A stretch of 64,000 bases of DNA from a virus. A model generated the notes under the pieces. The model did no database searches and was not told the origin of the DNA. It saw nothing but the letters and a program-made list of their open reading frames with translations. Numbering within the stretch: position 1 is the stretch's first letter; every line of letters begins with the position of its first letter. The DNA lies in IMG/VR virus record IMGVR_UViG_3300024308_000016, positions 1 to 64,000 of that record; one strand, given 5' to 3'. Position numbers and translations under genes: made by a program. Positions 6,013-40,076 of the stretch are shown in pieces.

Positions 6013-6504
6013 ATGGAACTCATCATCACTTCCAAGGAATTCACCGCCTCCCTGAACATGATCGCAGCAATCGCTCGCGTCATGCCCGAGGGAGTGGACC
6101 GCCGCACGTTTCTGGACGCACATGCCAACATCGGGCAAGTGCTGCGGGAATTCAACGACATCCCCTACGAAGCGCTGATCGTTAACCAGGATCTGATCAG
6201 CAGCTACGTCAACCGTCTGAATGACTACAGCGGTGAAGGTGGCCCCGTTGTGTCGTTCCAATTCATGCCCTCGGCATGCCGCACCCAGATCGAAGGCTCC
6301 TTTGCCATCGACTCGGACGTCATGGTTGAGGTGACGGAGGCCATCACCGAAGAGATCGATGGCCTGGCGGGAGCCTGCATCGCGCTGTACGGCATGGTGC
6401 GCATGTTCACCTCCAGCTTCAAGCGCCTGGGCAAGAAGGTCGAAGCTATCGTGCAAAACCACGTCCAGCTGTCGCGTGAAAGCGACGATCAGCGTCTGAT
6501 GTAA
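6013..6504 (+). CDS. Hypothetical protein, 163 aa
   Basis: The protein has helical ends and a central strand-rich region; no known motif. AAATAGAAAG precedes the ATG. A small inverted repeat (GAGCC/GGGCTC, about 5973-5992) lies in its leader and might be a processing hairpin. Function unknown. Confidence 0.7.
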   Translation: MELIITSKEFTASLNMIAAIARVMPEGVDRRTFLDAHANIGQVLREFNDIPYEALIVNQDLISSYVNRLNDYSGEGGPVVSFQFMPSACRTQIEGSFAIDSDVMVEVTEAITEEIDGLAGACIALYGMVRMFTSSFKRLGKKVEAIVQNHVQLSRESDDQRLM

Positions 6505-6519
6505 GTCAGCGTCCTACAG

Positions 6520-6565
6520 TGAGCCCGGATCTTCGGATCCTGGGCTCGTCCTTTTCTTTTTTGTC
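6520..6565 (+). terminator. Rho-independent terminator
   Basis: GAGCCCGGATC-ttcg-GATCCTGGGCTC with one bulge, followed by CCTTTTCTTTTTT. The next gene starts only 20 bases later with its AATAGAAAG motif and no promoter element between, so termination here must be partial or the hairpin acts in RNA processing. Confidence 0.8.
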
Positions 6566-6584
6566 CAATAGAAAGTCCCTGATC

Positions 6585-7421
6585 ATGAACATCCTGCAAC
6601 GCTTTCGCGCCAACCTGTACCGCGCAGTGAACTCCCTGCGCACCACCAGCCAAGACAGCGCCAAGATGGCCAAGGACCGGCTGCTGGATGCACGCAACCA
6701 GCCCGCTGCCCCGACGGTGATCTTCGAGGATGTCGATACCCTGACTCCGGAGATGGCGCAAAAGCTGTGTGCTACGTCCGAAGCCATGAAGGACATCCCC
6801 AATGTCGAGGCTGTGTATGCGTCCTCCCCGCCAGCTGTTACAGATGACGTCCCCTCCATTTTGGTGCGACCATCCGAGCGCCTTGATACGCTGGCTTCCT
6901 TCCTGCAAGAAAACAAGGAGGGCATCGAGCAGGTGATCGAGCTGCTGAAGCTCGCTCACGAAAACAACCTGTACCATGCGCGCTGGTATGTTTGTCATGC
7001 CGAGGATGCCAACTGGGATCTGAACATGAATGCCCGCAATCCCGGTCGTATGCCCGACACCATCGAGGAGATGATGGAACGCAAGATGTGTGGGGATCTG
7101 GGCTTTTTGATGAGCGTGTGGCCCTACTTCCGTCAGCGGGGCTTTCAGCACACCATCATCGGCATGGCTGTCTACTACGACAAAGTGGCCGATGCGCTGT
7201 ACAACACGCCAGCTACGGCCATTGCCAAGATCCTGAACCTGGATGTGAAGCTGGTAGAGTTGATCATCAACGGCTCACCAGTGCTGCACAAAACGCCGCA
7301 CCAGCTGTACCTCAAGACCTGGCGCGAGGTCACGGTTCTGGATCTGATCCAGGTCTTTGAAAACATCCTGGAGCAGGGTCAATACTCTGTTCTCATCGGC
7401 GCTCACGTCTCCTTCAAGTAA
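6585..7421 (+). CDS. Hypothetical protein, 278 aa, four-member family
   Basis: This is a second member of the family at 3316, 8306 and 44792. The GTACxAG core is degenerate here (CGDLGFLMSVWPYF), but the following helix with AIAKILNLDVKLVELII and the C-terminal VTVLDLIQVFENIL block align with the others. The N-terminal 110 residues are unique. The ATG at 6585 follows CAATAGAAAG. Function unknown. Confidence 0.75.
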   Translation: MNILQRFRANLYRAVNSLRTTSQDSAKMAKDRLLDARNQPAAPTVIFEDVDTLTPEMAQKLCATSEAMKDIPNVEAVYASSPPAVTDDVPSILVRPSERLDTLASFLQENKEGIEQVIELLKLAHENNLYHARWYVCHAEDANWDLNMNARNPGRMPDTIEEMMERKMCGDLGFLMSVWPYFRQRGFQHTIIGMAVYYDKVADALYNTPATAIAKILNLDVKLVELIINGSPVLHKTPHQLYLKTWREVTVLDLIQVFENILEQGQYSVLIGAHVSFK

Positions 7422-7438
7422 AGAAAGGTATCTCAGTC

Positions 7439-8257
7439 ATGTCTATCCAAATCGCTCCTTCCGAATTCACTCGCGACTACCGCCAGACGCAAGAAGACAT
7501 CAAAGCCAACGGTCTGAAGGTCATGCCGCTGCGCGTGTACCTGGACCGCTACCGCAAACTGCCGGAGATGCGCAGTGACTTTCCGGAGTACTACTTCAAG
7601 TTCTTCGATATGTCGGACTACCTGCGCGAATCCACTGCCAAACACTACGGCCCGCTGCCCAAGCGCAAGATGGAGCGCCACCTGGCCTACATGCCTCAAT
7701 GGGGCAACGAGATGCACCGCATCTTGACCGAAGACATCACCCAGGTCAAGTTGCAGGTGGTGTACACAGGGCCTCTATCGGCTGAGCACCTGAAGGTGAT
7801 GCGCGAAACGTTCTTGAGCTTCATGCTCGGGGACATTGTGCTGAGTGCGGGTGAGGATACCGAGTACACGGCACACGTCACGGATATGGGTAACACGGGC
7901 GCCTTCACGGCGTTCGAGTTGCACTTCCAAACGCCCTGGAGCCAACGCAACTCCAAGCAGCGCGATGAGCTGCTGCGTCTGATCGCGGCCATCACACGTG
8001 GCTGCCGCTCATCTTCGGCTGAGTGGCTTGCCCGTATCGACGACCCGATCAACAACCGGGCGTATCCGCGTCGCCAGTTTGCCAGCTACCTGATCGTGGG
8101 GCGTGACGACTACTACACGGACGAGCCGCGCATCTTGGGCGGCTACGAGAACCTGGATGCCGCCATCGATGCATCCAAGCTGCTGGGAACGAGCCGCCGC
8201 TGGCACTCGCTGTTCCTGATCGAGACCGATCCCACTCTGGCTGTTGAAGCCTACTGA
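7439..8257 (+). CDS. Hypothetical protein, 272 aa
   Basis: The protein starts 17 bases after the previous stop, with AAGAAAGG before its ATG. It is mixed alpha/beta, rich in tyrosine and arginine, with no membrane segment and no motif I recognise. It lies in a run of similar-sized orphan genes (6585-10889). Function unknown. Confidence 0.7.
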   Translation: MSIQIAPSEFTRDYRQTQEDIKANGLKVMPLRVYLDRYRKLPEMRSDFPEYYFKFFDMSDYLRESTAKHYGPLPKRKMERHLAYMPQWGNEMHRILTEDITQVKLQVVYTGPLSAEHLKVMRETFLSFMLGDIVLSAGEDTEYTAHVTDMGNTGAFTAFELHFQTPWSQRNSKQRDELLRLIAAITRGCRSSSAEWLARIDDPINNRAYPRRQFASYLIVGRDDYYTDEPRILGGYENLDAAIDASKLLGTSRRWHSLFLIETDPTLAVEAY

Positions 8258-34114: not shown

Positions 34115-36073
34115 ATGTCTGAAAAGTTCAACTTCAACGCCCGCGCTGGCCAAGCTCAAGCCGAGGAAGTGGAAGACGTGCAACCGCGTCAACCCTCCGC
34201 AGCTTCGGGTGGCCGTGCCGAAGAAGTGCGTCGCGTCTCCAGCCCCTTCAAGACCCTGGCTCAAGGCTCTCGCCTGGTGGGTCAGCGCATCGCCGAAAAC
34301 GCCGGCTCCGACAAGTTCAATGCCCTGCTCAAGAACGTGCAGGAAGTGTTCAAGGAAGCCGATGCGGCCAAGGACGAATTCGTGATCCTGCCCATGCCCA
34401 AGGAAGTGACCCGCATGCACTTCTCGGCCATCGTGCTGGCGCGTCGTCCCGAAGTGCCCGTGGTCGAAGGCTGGTCGGTCAACCACCTGGTCGTGGCCCA
34501 GGTCCTGATGGTGGAAGCCACCGGCGACAACCCGCGCCCCTACAACGACGACTCGGTGCGCAACCGCAACTTCCAGATCACGCCCACGTCCGAAGACGTG
34601 TACAACGAGATCTTCCAGAACGCCGCTCGCAAGGTTGTCACCGATGCCCTGCGCACCCAAGTGGCCGTCAACCTGATGGACTGCGTGATCGTGCGCCGCG
34701 ACTTCGATGTCACCAACATCAACGACGTGCGCCGCCTGATCTCGGCCGCCACCACCGGCATCACCACCCGCGCCATGCAGCGTCACCCGGACTTCACCGA
34801 CTGGAACCTGTCGGGCTGGACCGACGGCATCCGCGACATCCAGCTGCCCGTGAGCATCGAGTCGACCACGACCGAAGTGCAAACGACTGCCAACGGCGAT
34901 GTCGTGCATGCGGACATGGTCATCACCGTGGGCGTGGAAAGCCGTCAGCGTGATCGCACTCCGCGTTTCAACGACGACATCAGCTCCGAGCCCGTGTGCG
35001 AAACCTCGGTGAACATCGAGCTGGTTCCCGTGAACCCGGACTTCCTGGACGATGCCGACATCAACCGCGGCCGTCGCCGTCGCCGTGACCAGGACTTCGT
35101 TCCCCAAGCGGCCTGGATGCCTCGCGCCAACATCGTGAATATCGAACAAATGCAGGCCCGCACCCTGGCCGGCATCCTGTTCTCCATCGCTTCGGTGTCC
35201 GAGCTCAACCGTGACCGCCAGTGGGCGTCGCTGTTCCGTCCCCGTCGTGGTGCCGGCCGCAAGGACGTGAACTTCTACGACATCGGCGCGCTGAACATCC
35301 ACGCAAACGTGGCCGACGAAAAGGGCGACTTCGGTCAGCCCATCGACACCACGATCCCCGAGTTCGGGGACGAAGAGTTCAGCATCTTCCTGGACCGCAC
35401 GCTGACGCAGCAGATGGCCATCGGCATCGACTGCCCGGACACCGGCCTGCAGGCGTTCTACACGGCATCGTTCGCGGCCATCGCCACCGGCGACAACAAG
35501 GTGCGCCAGCGCGCGACCATGGACGTGTTCGACGCAGCCATGGATCTGACCAACGGCGCCGTCGAGATGTTCTTCGATCCCACCAAGGATCAGATCATCG
35601 AAGGCCCCGGCGAGCGCTTCCACATGGGCTACTGGACCGACGCCAACGGCCAACGCCGTGACATCCGTCAGCTGGCATCGTTCCTGCCCGTGGCCAACAT
35701 GGTCGCATCCAACGGCTCCAACATGCGTCTGCTCGACGACTGGCTGGACACCTGGTTCGGCAGCCAGGACGAGAACTACCGCCTGGCCGAGCGCCTGAAG
35801 CTGCTCAACGCCATCTGCGACGATTCGCTCGTTGTCACTGGCATGGGCATCCGTCCTACCGTGACCGGCCACTTCGCCGACGCACTGGCCAAGGGCATCC
35901 GCGAAACCAACGTGCCTCTGGTGCCTCGTAACGGCGACCACAACACGGTGCTCCAACAGCGCCGCGTGGTGGCCGGCTACGGCACAGGCGCGCTGCTGCG
36001 CACCACCGGCGTGAGCCGCTCGCTGGAGCGCCGCGGTGGTGACGGCCGTCGCTACCGCCGCAGCTACAACTGA
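34115..36073 (+). CDS. chmA: Chimallin-like phage nuclear shell protein
   Basis: The protein is predicted to form the square-lattice protein shell that encloses the replicating phage genome and excludes host nucleases. It is 652 aa, about the length of known chimallins, without membrane spans. Both ends look disordered: an N-terminal 40 residues rich in Ala, Gln and Glu, and a C-terminal arginine/glycine-rich tail (SLERRGGDGRRYRRSYN), in line with the flexible segments that link subunits in the family. The middle is a large alpha/beta region with motifs such as FVILPMPKEVTRMHF and MGIRPTVTGHFADAL. The gene has the most GC-rich, regular codon use in the window, fitting very high expression. 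It stands alone between promoter copy 6 and a hairpin, next to a phage RNA polymerase gene, an arrangement seen in phiKZ-type phages. Assignment rests on these features and overall likeness, not on an alignment. Confidence 0.8.
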   Translation: MSEKFNFNARAGQAQAEEVEDVQPRQPSAASGGRAEEVRRVSSPFKTLAQGSRLVGQRIAENAGSDKFNALLKNVQEVFKEADAAKDEFVILPMPKEVTRMHFSAIVLARRPEVPVVEGWSVNHLVVAQVLMVEATGDNPRPYNDDSVRNRNFQITPTSEDVYNEIFQNAARKVVTDALRTQVAVNLMDCVIVRRDFDVTNINDVRRLISAATTGITTRAMQRHPDFTDWNLSGWTDGIRDIQLPVSIESTTTEVQTTANGDVVHADMVITVGVESRQRDRTPRFNDDISSEPVCETSVNIELVPVNPDFLDDADINRGRRRRRDQDFVPQAAWMPRANIVNIEQMQARTLAGILFSIASVSELNRDRQWASLFRPRRGAGRKDVNFYDIGALNIHANVADEKGDFGQPIDTTIPEFGDEEFSIFLDRTLTQQMAIGIDCPDTGLQAFYTASFAAIATGDNKVRQRATMDVFDAAMDLTNGAVEMFFDPTKDQIIEGPGERFHMGYWTDANGQRRDIRQLASFLPVANMVASNGSNMRLLDDWLDTWFGSQDENYRLAERLKLLNAICDDSLVVTGMGIRPTVTGHFADALAKGIRETNVPLVPRNGDHNTVLQQRRVVAGYGTGALLRTTGVSRSLERRGGDGRRYRRSYN

Positions 36074-36616: not shown

Positions 36617-37744
36617 TTGCCAATTGTTCTGGAAGTAGAAGACCACGATCGGATGTTTGCGCAAACTATCGAGCGCGTGGAGCCTATCTTTCTCAACGAC
36701 CTTGCCAACAGCACGGAAGAAGACAAAGAACGCATCCGCGCGCTGACGATGAACCAGCTCAATTCCGACACCATCTCGATCATTCCCAGATGCGGCTGCG
36801 GCCACACCAAAGGACGATTCGCCCTGGGCAAGCAATGCCCCGTGTGCCAAGATGTGGTCAAGAGCAACATCGACGAGTCAGTCACCAGCTTGCTGTGGTT
36901 CCGTAAACCGGAATTCGTGCACAAGCTCGTGAACCCGGCTGTGTGGTCGATGCTCAGCTCCTACTTCTCCAAAAGCAATTTCAACGCGATACAATACCTC
37001 ACCGACAACTTGTATACGGCGGGCACTCGTACACCTCCGGAGATCGAAAAGCTCTCCGAGTACGGCTTCGAGCGTGACTTGAACTTCTTCACCCGCAACT
37101 TCGACGACGTCTTAGGCGGGCTGATGAGCGCGTTCAAGCAAAAGGCCAACAAGCCTTATCGAGAGCTCATCGATTTCCTGGACGACAACAGGAGCCGTAT
37201 CTTCAGTGACCAACAACCCGTGCTCAACCGCGCGATGTTCGTTGCTGACAAGACCAACTTGGGCATCTACATGGAGAACTCCGTCAAAGATGCCCTTGAC
37301 GCGTACTACCACGTCGTCTCCATCGACAAAGACTTCCATGACAGAAGCGAGAAGGTGATCGTCAATCGCACTGCACGCATGCAGGCGCGTATGGCGGCGT
37401 TCTTCGACAGCTACACTGGCACCAACATGCAGCCCAAACCCGGGCATGCACGGCGCCACGTCTATGGATCTCGTGTCATCTTCTCTGCGCGAGGCGTGAT
37501 CAGCTCCACCACTGACCACCATCGCCATGATGAGATCGGAGTACCCTGGTGTATTGCGGTGCCGATGTTCCAGCACCACCTCGTCGGCATGCTCATGCGT
37601 CACGGCTTCACCTACAACGGTGCGCTGGGCTATGTGTATAGGCATGTGCACATCTACGATGAGCTGCTGCATCGCTTCTTGGACCAAATCTTCAGGGAGT
37701 ACCCGGGTGGCCGAGGACCATCGATGCTCCTCCATCGAAACGAT
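36617..37744 (+). CDS. Phage RNA polymerase beta-prime N-terminal part, exon 1
   Basis: Exon 1 codes for about 375 residues of a multisubunit-type RNA polymerase subunit. CGCGHTKGRFALGKQCPVC (residues 59-77) is the zinc ribbon of bacterial beta-prime. RRHVYGSRVIFSARGVISS (279-297) matches the region read as KRVDYSGRSVI in E. coli. GPSMLLHRN at the end matches LLNRAPTL, cut before the PTL. Reading then hits a stop within an intron. The TTG at 36617 is preferred as start because AAAGGAG lies 5 bases before it; an ATG at 36569 is the alternative. The last codon GAT (37742-37744) pairs with a candidate internal guide and would add an Asp between HRN and PTL. Phage nuclei use such polymerases for transcription independent of the host enzyme. 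Confidence 0.8.
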
Positions 37745-39135
37745 TAGTAAACTATGAAATAGCATTCCTAATTAAGTGGACCAACTTAGTGAGGAAGCTA
37801 TGCCAATTCCAGCATTTACAAAAGAGTACAAACATCTCGGGAAGATTTACCGAGCTGTTCCCGGTTATCGACGACTGATAGTCTCTGAAGACGGAGAGTT
37901 TTATCGTCTTGGTGAAGACGGGAATCCTGCAAAGAGATGCCCGCAGTTCAAGATGCACAACACCCGCACTGAGCGAAGATCAGACACTACGTACTATTGG
38001 ACAGTACGAGAGATCGCGGATAATGGTGGCGTCAAAACCACCGGTGCTCACATCTTGGTGTGCAGAGCGTGGAATGGAATGCCCCCGGATGACGGGATCA
38101 AGTACGACGTTAACCACAAAAATAGCATCAAGACGGATAACAGGGCTGAAAACCTTGAATGGTCGACACGCTCGCAGAACATTGCTCACTGTTTCGATAG
38201 TGGGGAGAACTGCGCTGCCGTCCGGATCATCCAGCGAAACATAGAGACGGGGGAAGAGAAAATCTTCCGAAGTATCAAGAACTTCGCTGAGACCATGGGA
38301 CTATTTCGCGTGAATGTTCGCAGTTTCATCGCTGCGCATTCTAAGGAGCCTCATAACGGCTTCATCTACTCCATTGAGGAGCCGCGAAACTTCCGCATAA
38401 AGCCTGTACGTTATCAGACGAAAGAAGTGGCCTACTTCGATTATACGTCGCGAAAGCTCACAATCTGCTCCAGTATAGAGCATGCTAGTCTAGAGACAGG
38501 CATAAAGAGTGCGACCATCAAGCACGCGTGTAACCGCTTTGCTAACGATGGTGTCGCTGAGCCGACGCGTCAGTTCTTCTTCCAGTTTTTCAAACCTGGG
38601 ATGGAGTGGCCAGAATTCACTGCTGAGGAATTGGAGAAGTTCGAAAAGCGGTTCTTGAATTTTTCAAGAGCTGCAAGCGGACCTCGAAAACATAGTTCAG
38701 AATCATTTCCCTCTACAGAAATGTAGTTGTATCCCGGAACACCGGGAGTAAGTTCTTGAATTGCGGGAACATCTCGTAAGGTCCCCACTACCAAGCCAGT
38801 GTAGTAATGCGCTGGTGGCCTGGGTAACTACCAGGGTACGGTAACAAGGTGGGGAATAGAGACAATCCGCAGCGAAGCATCCGGAAACGGATGAACGTTC
38901 GACGGTCATCGAAAGGGGAAGGAAGTCGGGTAAGACTCCTGAGACCGAGTAGAGTAGGGCCCAAGTGGGTGCAGTAGCAAACTGCCGTAAGCCGAAGCGG
39001 GAACAGTCTGACCACTGAAAGGTGAAGACTAAGATATGACCTGTGCCACGCAGCTGAGTGATCGGCTGGTTTCCGAGAGGCGTGGAGGGTGTCGATGCAC
39101 ACCTGGACTTGCTAACGACAAGTTTGGACAAACAG
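37745..39135 (+). ncRNA. Group I intron 1, carries HNH endonuclease gene
   Basis: The catalytic core lies after the endonuclease gene: a Q-like AATCCGCAGCGAAGC (38864-38878), R with GTTCGACGGTCAT (38897-38909) and S with AAGATATGACCT (39031-39042). GGTCAT in R pairs with ATGACC in S to form P7. A candidate guide GTTGT near 38704-38712 pairs with the end of exon 1 (ACGAT). The 3' end is set at the G before CCCACTTTA, where the protein reading resumes as PTLMQG. Boundaries are uncertain by a few bases. Confidence 0.8.
37800..38726 (+). CDS. NUMOD4-HNH homing endonuclease in intron 1
   Basis: The N-terminus (YRAVPGYRRLIVSEDGEFY) fits the NUMOD4 motif. HILVCRAWNGMPP, then VNHKNSIKTDNRAENLEWST (residues 104-123) is a classic HNH_3 domain with H106 and the N and H of the core. 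The second half contains NUMOD1-like helix-turn-helix repeats (residues about 150-180 and 220-250), which bind DNA. The enzyme would cut intronless alleles of the polymerase gene near the insertion site so that the intron is copied in. Codon use is more AT-rich than in neighbouring phage genes, in line with separate origin. The ATG at 37800 with GAGGA before it is chosen; a GTG at 37776 is possible. Confidence 0.85.
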   Translation: MPIPAFTKEYKHLGKIYRAVPGYRRLIVSEDGEFYRLGEDGNPAKRCPQFKMHNTRTERRSDTTYYWTVREIADNGGVKTTGAHILVCRAWNGMPPDDGIKYDVNHKNSIKTDNRAENLEWSTRSQNIAHCFDSGENCAAVRIIQRNIETGEEKIFRSIKNFAETMGLFRVNVRSFIAAHSKEPHNGFIYSIEEPRNFRIKPVRYQTKEVAYFDYTSRKLTICSSIEHASLETGIKSATIKHACNRFANDGVAEPTRQFFFQFFKPGMEWPEFTAEELEKFEKRFLNFSRAASGPRKHSSESFPSTEM

Positions 39136-39243
39136 CCCACTTTAATGCAGGGGTCGATGCAGCGAGTCTTCGGGAAACTGAAGACGGACCCTAGAGATAA
39201 GACTATCTCCATGTCGATCTTGATCGTCGTAGCTCCCAACGCT
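39136..39243 (+). CDS. RNA polymerase beta-prime, exon 2
   Basis: Thirty-six codons read PTLMQGSMQRVFGKL at the start and ISMSILIVVAPNA at the end. They join the LLHRN end of exon 1 and lead into the metal-binding loop, matching the order of E. coli beta-prime (APTLHRLG ... YNADFDGD). The 3' end after AACGCT pairs with the guide GGCGT at 39267-39271 (P1), including the usual U-G pair at the splice site. Confidence 0.75.
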
Positions 39244-39567
39244 AAATTGGCCTATACGTCAGAAATGGCGTAGTGAATCTTACTGAATTGCTGGAACCCC
39301 CTAAGAGCCCCACTACCACTGCGAGCGGTAACGCAAAGCGACGGTTTGACAAGTGTGAGGATTGGACAACCAGCAGCGAAGCCTCCTTACGGGTGGAGGA
39401 ACGTTCAACGACTATGGCTGAGATGCCAGTACACTCAAGTGAGTGGAAGTAGTAAGCACCTTACCGGATAGAGCCGAAGGTGAAGATATAGTCTGACCTT
39501 TAGGGAAAGCCTAAAGACGCGCGTAATGGCGCTAGATAGTACTAACGACACTATCTGAACGCCCGTC
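39244..39567 (+). ncRNA. Group I intron 2
   Basis: Core elements are a Q-like ACCAGCAGCGAAGC (39369-39382), R with GTTCAACGACTAT (39403-39415) and S with AAGATATAGTCT (39483-39494); GACTAT and ATAGTC form P7. P1 forms with exon 2 as described. A P10 pairing of GAAAT (39262-39266) with ATTTC (39569-39573) would put the 3' splice one base later than the protein reading needs (see finding). There is no gene inside. Confidence 0.8.
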
Positions 39568-39579
39568 GATTTCGATGGT
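39568..39579 (+). CDS. RNA polymerase beta-prime, micro-exon 3 (DFDG)
   Basis: Twelve bases, GATTTCGATGGT, encode Asp-Phe-Asp-Gly, the middle of the universal NADFDGD loop that binds the catalytic magnesium. NA comes from exon 2 and the last D from exon 4. The 3' end GATGGT pairs with GCCATC (39584-39589) of intron 3. The micro-exon is flanked by two group I introns. Confidence 0.7.
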
Positions 39580-39899
39580 CGATGGCCATCATTAAACTCT
39601 TTTAATTGTCAGGGAAACCCTTAGAGCCTCCGATTGGAAGATTGGGCAATCTGCAGCGAAGCCTCCCAATAGGGAGGAACGTTCAACGATCATCGAAAGG
39701 GTAGGGCGTACAGCCTGAGTAACCGAGTAGAGTAGAACCCGCTAGCCATTAAGGCGGGAAGAAACGGAGAGCTCCCAGAAATGGGAGAAGAAATGATCTC
39801 AGCCGGTGTGAAAGCATCGGACGCTCTGTACGGTGTACAGGGTCCCCTGGGTGGTGCCAGGGTAAAGACGCCCGAGTGCGGCGTGTACAATGCAAACTG
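39580..39899 (+). ncRNA. Group I intron 3
   Basis: P1 is formed by exon GATGGT with guide GCCATC right after the splice site. Q-like CTGCAGCGAAGC (39651-39662), R with GTTCAACGATCAT (39681-39693), S with AAGAAATGATCT (39788-39799); GATCAT and ATGATC form P7. It ends in G at 39899, as expected. It resembles intron 2 in the AATTG, CCTTAGAGCC and GAGGAACGTTCAACGA stretches, so they are probably related copies. Confidence 0.8.
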
Positions 39900-40076
39900 G
39901 ACGCACTCAACTTGATGTTGGCGCCTGATGCCAAGATGGCCCGGTTCTGGGAAGTCTTTGCACCGGACTACAACATCTTCTTGATGGAAAACCCGATGGA
40001 GGCATCGGGCAACCTTGCGCTGACCAAACCCGTGGTGATGAGCGGGGGTGAATGGTTGGCTGACGAGGACGACTGA
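39900..40076 (+). CDS. RNA polymerase beta-prime, exon 4 and C-terminus
   Basis: The reading DALNLMLAPDAKMARFWEVF follows DFDG to complete NADFDGDALNL, the catalytic loop and following helix, and ends with an acidic tail EWLADEDD and a stop. The spliced protein would be about 473 residues, ending soon after the catalytic loop as expected for a split beta-prime whose remainder is a separate gene elsewhere. Confidence 0.75.
   Translation, partial: DALNLMLAPDAKMARFWEVFAPDYNIFLMENPMEASGNLALTKPVVMSGGEWLADEDD

Follow-up and report, generated by a model that had tools for sequence, protein, structure and literature searches.

The interrupted beta' gene and its neighbourhood

The window analysed here (64 kb) is the first part of a 272,393-bp virus record (IMGVR_UViG_3300024308_000016), and the gene at 36617-40076 on its plus strand encodes the N-terminal part of the beta' subunit of a non-virion RNA polymerase (nvRNAP), i.e. 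a member of the phiKZ gp55 family (phrog_2987). Its upstream neighbour (34115-36073, plus strand) encodes chimallin, the protein of the phage nucleus shell (PF25677, 66.6 bits; phrog_4795), and the genome is that of a 272-kb nucleus-forming phage; chimallin followed by beta' is the same synteny as gp54-gp55 in phiKZ. A full-length profile match, the DFDGD motif and the adjoining chimallin gene together place the product as the N-terminal part of a chimallivirus nvRNAP beta'. The sequence-only reading had assigned the gene to a beta-prime subunit, and the assignment stands with the refinement that this is the N-terminal half and not the whole of beta'. Homologues of gp73 and gp74, also nvRNAP subunits, lie near 126 kb of the record and have no internal stops. 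That reading had named an intact copy elsewhere as evidence against itself; a search of the genome with its own gene found no second or intact copy across the 272,393-bp record.

The frame runs into a stop at 37747 and is taken up again at 39136 (PTLMQG), 39568 (DFDG) and 39900 (DALNLM), exactly as first reported from the letters. The gene falls into four exons, all on the plus strand. Exon 1 (36617-37741; 1125 nt) ends in ...CATCGAAAC (HRN); compared by tblastn with 278 phage records and by profile with phrog_2987 (RNA polymerase), it gives on its own 337.8 bits (E = 1.9e-100) against the latter, and its junction was placed by alignment with intact homologues and with introns at the same site. 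Exon 2 (39136-39240; 105 nt; PTLMQG...VVAPN) and exon 4 (39900-40076; 177 nt including the stop; DALNLM...DEDD) are supported by alignment to L012, the locus of the closest relative (58%). Between them lies exon 3, a 15-nt microexon (39565-39579; GTCGATTTCGATGGT, VDFDG) that carries two catalytic aspartates and was placed by the collinearity of the joined protein with relatives and with phiKZ gp55 (PDB 7ogp).

Joining the four exons yields a protein of 473 aa that is collinear with its relatives and in which the DFDGD motif is restored across exons 3 and 4; the alanine of NADFDGD is replaced by valine. The score against phrog_2987 rises on joining from that of exon 1 to 436.9 bits, with coverage of positions 1-477 of 478, and the score against PDB 7ogp chain A (PHIKZ055 + PHIKZ056.1) from 172.4 to 258.7 bits. 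The alignment with phiKZ-type beta' proteins that had been proposed as a check thus matches phiKZ gp55 through DFDGD. Compared with L012, exon 2 has 27 of 35 residues identical and 22 of 37 nucleotide differences at third codon positions; for exon 4 the figures are 47 of 58 residues and 28 of 44 differences (10, 6 and 28 at the three codon positions). This third-position excess in exons 2-4 implies that the downstream exons are selected as one protein, and the pattern of substitution shows the exons to be under purifying selection.

Three group I introns with conserved cores

The three intervening segments, all on the plus strand, have the catalytic cores of group I introns. Intron 1 (37742-39135; 1394 nt; core 38745-39043) lies at the site RN-P, where the hyphen marks the insertion point, and its last base is G (39135). 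Intron 2 (39241-39564; 324 nt; core 39272-39495) lies at APN-A and intron 3 (39580-39899; 320 nt; core 39590-39800) at DFDG-D; neither contains an ORF. Rfam model RF00028 matches introns 2 and 3 at 39211-39516 (65.8 bits) and 39547-39820 (52.3 bits), both above the curated cut-off of 50 bits, and matches intron 1 weakly and below that cut-off (38651-39053; 18.7 bits, E = 0.095). A covariance model, R1, built from 13 related introns with intron 1 left out, scores intron 1 at 94.3 bits (E = 3.9e-20); introns 2 and 3, at 193.5 and 123.6 bits, belong to the training set of the model. Over the whole record R1 finds exactly five introns.

The cores were aligned for 24 introns, i.e. the three of the window, two more from the same genome, that of phiKZ gp55 and those of relatives. 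P3 has six of six pairs in every core, and P7 and P8 are paired almost throughout, with compensatory changes; in the three window introns the counts are 6/6 for P3, 6/6 for P7 and 4/4 for P8. Over the P3-P4-P6-P7-P8 core, 94.1% of cells are paired and there are 138 double changes, a result that none of 500 shuffles reaches, and sliding the alignment by one base cuts pairing to 41-44%. The P7 pairings put forward in the sequence-only reading (GGTCAT/ATGACC, GACTAT/ATAGTC and GATCAT/ATGATC) are all three correct, and its identification of the three gaps as group I introns is borne out by RF00028, by R1 and by the covariation over 24 introns; the search with group I covariance models that it had suggested recovered introns 2 and 3 above the Rfam cut-off and intron 1 through R1.

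Only intron 1 has an intron-encoded homing-endonuclease ORF. This HNH frame (37776-38726, plus strand; alternative ATG at 37800) matches PF13392 (HNH_3) with 40.8 bits against a cut-off of 24.8, as well as a phrog HNH endonuclease family, and is related to the HNH proteins of L012, of a further locus (L013) and of phiKZ (gp56). It probably sits in the P1 loop of the intron.

Predicted splice junctions and guide sequences

The junctions of intron 3 are clear: P1 is GAUGGU/GCCAUC (GATGGT/GCCATC in the DNA) with a U.G pair, the last base is G (39899), and in L012, L015 and L016 the introns at this site show exon and guide changing together. In introns 1 and 2 position -1 of the 5' splice site is C instead of U, and their best-placed internal guides, AUUUC at 38705 and AUUGG at 39246, each give C.A. 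In intron 2 a hairpin CCAAC-GCUAA-AUUGG would set C opposite A. In intron 1 the AUUUC at 38705 directly precedes P2, the place at which the same-site intron of L014 has GUUUC facing GAAAU. On these sequences the 5' splice sites of introns 1 and 2 have possibly changed from U.G to C.A. A C.A pair is isosteric with U.G. Such a substitute was reportedly tolerated in vitro in the work of Doudna, Cormack and Szostak in 1989.

Intron 1 has a second candidate guide, a longer match with a C-G pair, GUUUCGAU, at 38191 (GTTTCGAT, 38191-38198, inside the HNH frame); it is an 8-base complement of the exon 1 end ATCGAAAC, and may be a chance match or an alternative guide. Intron 2 has an uncertainty of 1 nt at its ends. 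The junction AAC-GTC needs C (39564) as the last base of the intron; AACG-TC, in which the 5' site moves one base downstream, leaves the mRNA unchanged and puts G (39565) last. Exon 2 would then end at 39241, and exon 3 would be 14 nt with 39565 as omega G. A G lost in assembly would also explain this end; another contig of this phage was sought as a check on the base, and none was found.

Several other junctions were rejected. For intron 1, HRND-PTL after GAU adds a D that is absent from relatives. For intron 2, GCT-CCCGTC and AACG-AT each lose one residue, and AACGCT-GAT combines a last base C with a weak P1.

Further introns in the genome and in its relatives

The two further introns of the genome (record positions 238479-238704 and 242243-242462), found with R1, are ORF-less group I introns of virion RNA polymerase genes. 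RNA polymerase genes thus hold each of the five introns detected in the record. One interrupts a phrog_2986 gene at its YDGD loop; the second exon resumes at YDGD, and the joined product scores 583 bits instead of the 546.7 obtained before joining. The other lies in a phrog_3148 gene (gp178 type) at NDD-PKRVAF, where PhiPA3 gp210 also has its intron. These two introns, the HNH frame of intron 1 and the phiKZ gp55 intron at the homologous site had gone unmentioned in the sequence-only reading.

A scan of viral contigs with a single protein query found no relative; with a profile the scan gave 61 loci. R1 was run on 39 loci and found introns in 13 (12 from IMG/VR, and phiKZ), all within the gp55-type gene. 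Among cultured isolates, the same gene contains introns in Serratia phage 2050HW, Erwinia phage pEa_SNUABM_54, Pseudomonas phage phiLBG22 and E. coli phage Goslar. The insertion sites, read by joining exons and, outside the window, assigned by hand, are before RNP, RN-P, PTL-Q, LIA-TAMNA, G-FN, APN-A, NA-D, AD-F, within F, DFD-G, DFDG-D, FDGD-Q and FDGDA-M, i.e. about a dozen sites in the roughly 45 codons that surround NADFDGD.

Tandem insertion recurs in several of these relatives, with two to four introns per gene and microexons of 6-20 nt. L012 has two introns, and L016 has two with a 20-nt exon between them. In L065 (IMG/VR 3300037502_002993, 6249-7658) three consecutive group I introns lie inside APN-AD-FDGD-AL and leave microexons of 6 nt (GCGGAT, encoding AD) and 12 nt (TTTGATGGTGAT, encoding FDGD). 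L014 (IMG/VR 3300021440_000013) has four intervening segments and exons of 15 and 12 nt; its fourth segment (7473-7740; 268 nt, after DYDG) matches neither Rfam nor R1, though the exons join in register. This segment has a group-I-like P1 (GACGGU/GCCGUU). The joined proteins of L012, L014, L016 and L065 are exactly collinear with intact relatives. In Goslar (MK327938, about 167.6-170.1 kb, minus strand) two group I introns flank a predicted 13-nt exon, CGACGGTGACGCT, whose junction was read by eye.

The deposited annotations of the isolates are incomplete. The depositors of Goslar annotated one of its two introns and labelled the last exon a hypothetical protein; Serratia 2050HW and Erwinia pEa_SNUABM_54 have unannotated group I introns at DFDG-D, and their gene is annotated as two pieces or cut short.

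The nvRNAP beta' gene is an intron hotspot across this phage family, which is new here.

Comparison with known intron-bearing phage genes

The nearest known counterpart is phiKZ gp55/gp56/gp56.1, in which the same gene is interrupted at the same APN-ADFDGD site as in intron 2, by an intron with a homologous core. The phiKZ HNH gene gp56 lies between the 5' site and the guide, as in intron 1, and gp55 and gp56.1 form one chain in PDB 7ogp. In contrast to the window gene, with its three introns and 15-nt exon, gp55 has one intron; the other two phiKZ introns are in gp71-73 and beside gp180. Goslar resembles the window gene in that two group I introns enclose a 13-nt exon inside DFDGDA, but at other insertion sites. 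PhiPA3 has a group I intron in its vRNAP beta gene, gp210 (Birkholz 2024, PMC11620839), which likewise interrupts a catalytic motif of a chimallivirus RNA polymerase, and the gp178 homologue of the window phage is interrupted at the same NDD- site; unlike that of PhiPA3, the intron there has no endonuclease ORF, the endonuclease being in the non-virion beta' gene. Introns in polymerase genes of the phiKZ family were already known, one of them acting as a weapon between phages (PMC11620839, PMC12908238), as was the natural splitting of jumbo phage beta and beta' over several genes (PMC7598289).

Three introns in one phage gene, which the sequence-only reading had called unusual, are unusual but not unique. 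Twort orf142 has three group I introns and a short internal exon of 23 nt (Landthaler and Shub 1999, as cited in PMC10136302 and PMC11878797); orf142 encodes a tail tube protein and skips its exon, whereas the window gene has a 15-nt exon in a polymerase active site. Polymerase and terminase genes of Bastillevirinae also have three introns in one gene, and a small exon is known from phiNIT1 (PMC11878797). Precedents exist for a single intron in this gene, for three introns within one phage gene and for an exon as short as 23 nt. Searches in open-access literature, from which absence is not provable, yielded no report of phage exons this short between group I introns or of intron stacking on the DFDGD loop of an RNA polymerase. 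The introns are ordinary group I elements; what is unusual is their spacing, i.e. a 15-nt microexon within the catalytic DFDGD loop, and the new part is this density, the microexons of the loop and the same crowding across the family.

Discussion

The locus very probably encodes one N-terminal nvRNAP beta' part that requires the self-excision of three group I introns before it can be produced, the introns being mobile elements or their remnants at an active-site hotspot. Each intron would excise by two guanosine-initiated transesterifications, and the four exons would give the 473-aa subunit with its double-psi barrel and metal-binding DFDGD loop. The microexon would serve as 3' exon for one ribozyme and as 5' exon for the next. 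Homing, like splicing and its order, is our inference: the introns would have inserted into the part of the gene that is most conserved; intron 1 would have kept its HNH endonuclease, and introns 2 and 3 would have lost an ORF or never had one. With active-site DNA as the hotspot, relatives would have gathered their two to four introns at differing neighbouring sites.

Normal splicing might be accompanied by exon skipping, with exon 2 joined in frame to exon 4 to give a catalytically dead competitor subunit. We regard this as quite unlikely: the frame is kept here (15 nt), in L014 (15 and 12 nt) and in L065 (6 and 12 nt), and skipping has precedents in the SIOphi terminase (PMC11878797) and Twort orf142 (23-nt exon, PMC10136302), but the intron 3 guide GCCAUC does not pair with the exon 2 end CCCAAC, and skipping the short exons of L016 (20 nt) and Goslar (13 nt) would put the frame out of register.

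Very unlikely, in our judgement, is that at least one of these group I introns no longer splices efficiently, the gene being on its way to loss or a damaged allele. The C found at -1 of the first two introns would fit such decay, as would the 1-nt ambiguity in where intron 2 begins and ends. Against it, all exons are conserved with a third-position excess, including the 177-nt last one; the subunit bears the catalytic aspartates and has no other gene copy; and the guide at 38705 is placed as is the U.G-type guide in the same-site intron of L014. That each fragment is translated on its own and the products come together as a split subunit, with the intervening segments as spacers, has the natural splitting of jumbo phage beta and beta' as a parallel (PMC7598289) but is hardly credible, given that exon 2 (35 codons) and exon 3 (five codons) have no start sites, that the intervals hold conserved ribozyme cores and that phiKZ gp55 is a single chain in the solved structure.

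On the preferred reading, i.e. a single subunit made by removal of three introns, a single essential motif of the active site can accommodate several self-splicing introns together, separated by coding exons of 6-20 nt. Such genes test the minimum exon size of group I introns, each microexon having to provide both the 3' exon of the preceding intron and part of P1 of the following one; Goslar is cultured in E. coli, so the arrangement is directly testable on its predicted 13-nt exon. Standard annotation misses such microexons, as the Goslar record illustrates.

The phage nucleus separates transcription from translation. An unlikely but consequential extension is that the metal-binding loop is a standing intron array with a fixed splicing order and skipped, dead subunits in frame; if skipping is real, splicing would control the level of active late polymerase, perhaps inside the phage nucleus. 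The setting is that of nucleus-forming phages, in which the endonuclease of a polymerase-gene intron is known as a weapon in co-infection (PMC11620839), and protection against the endonucleases of rivals could be a further effect of having two or more introns in the motif that these target.
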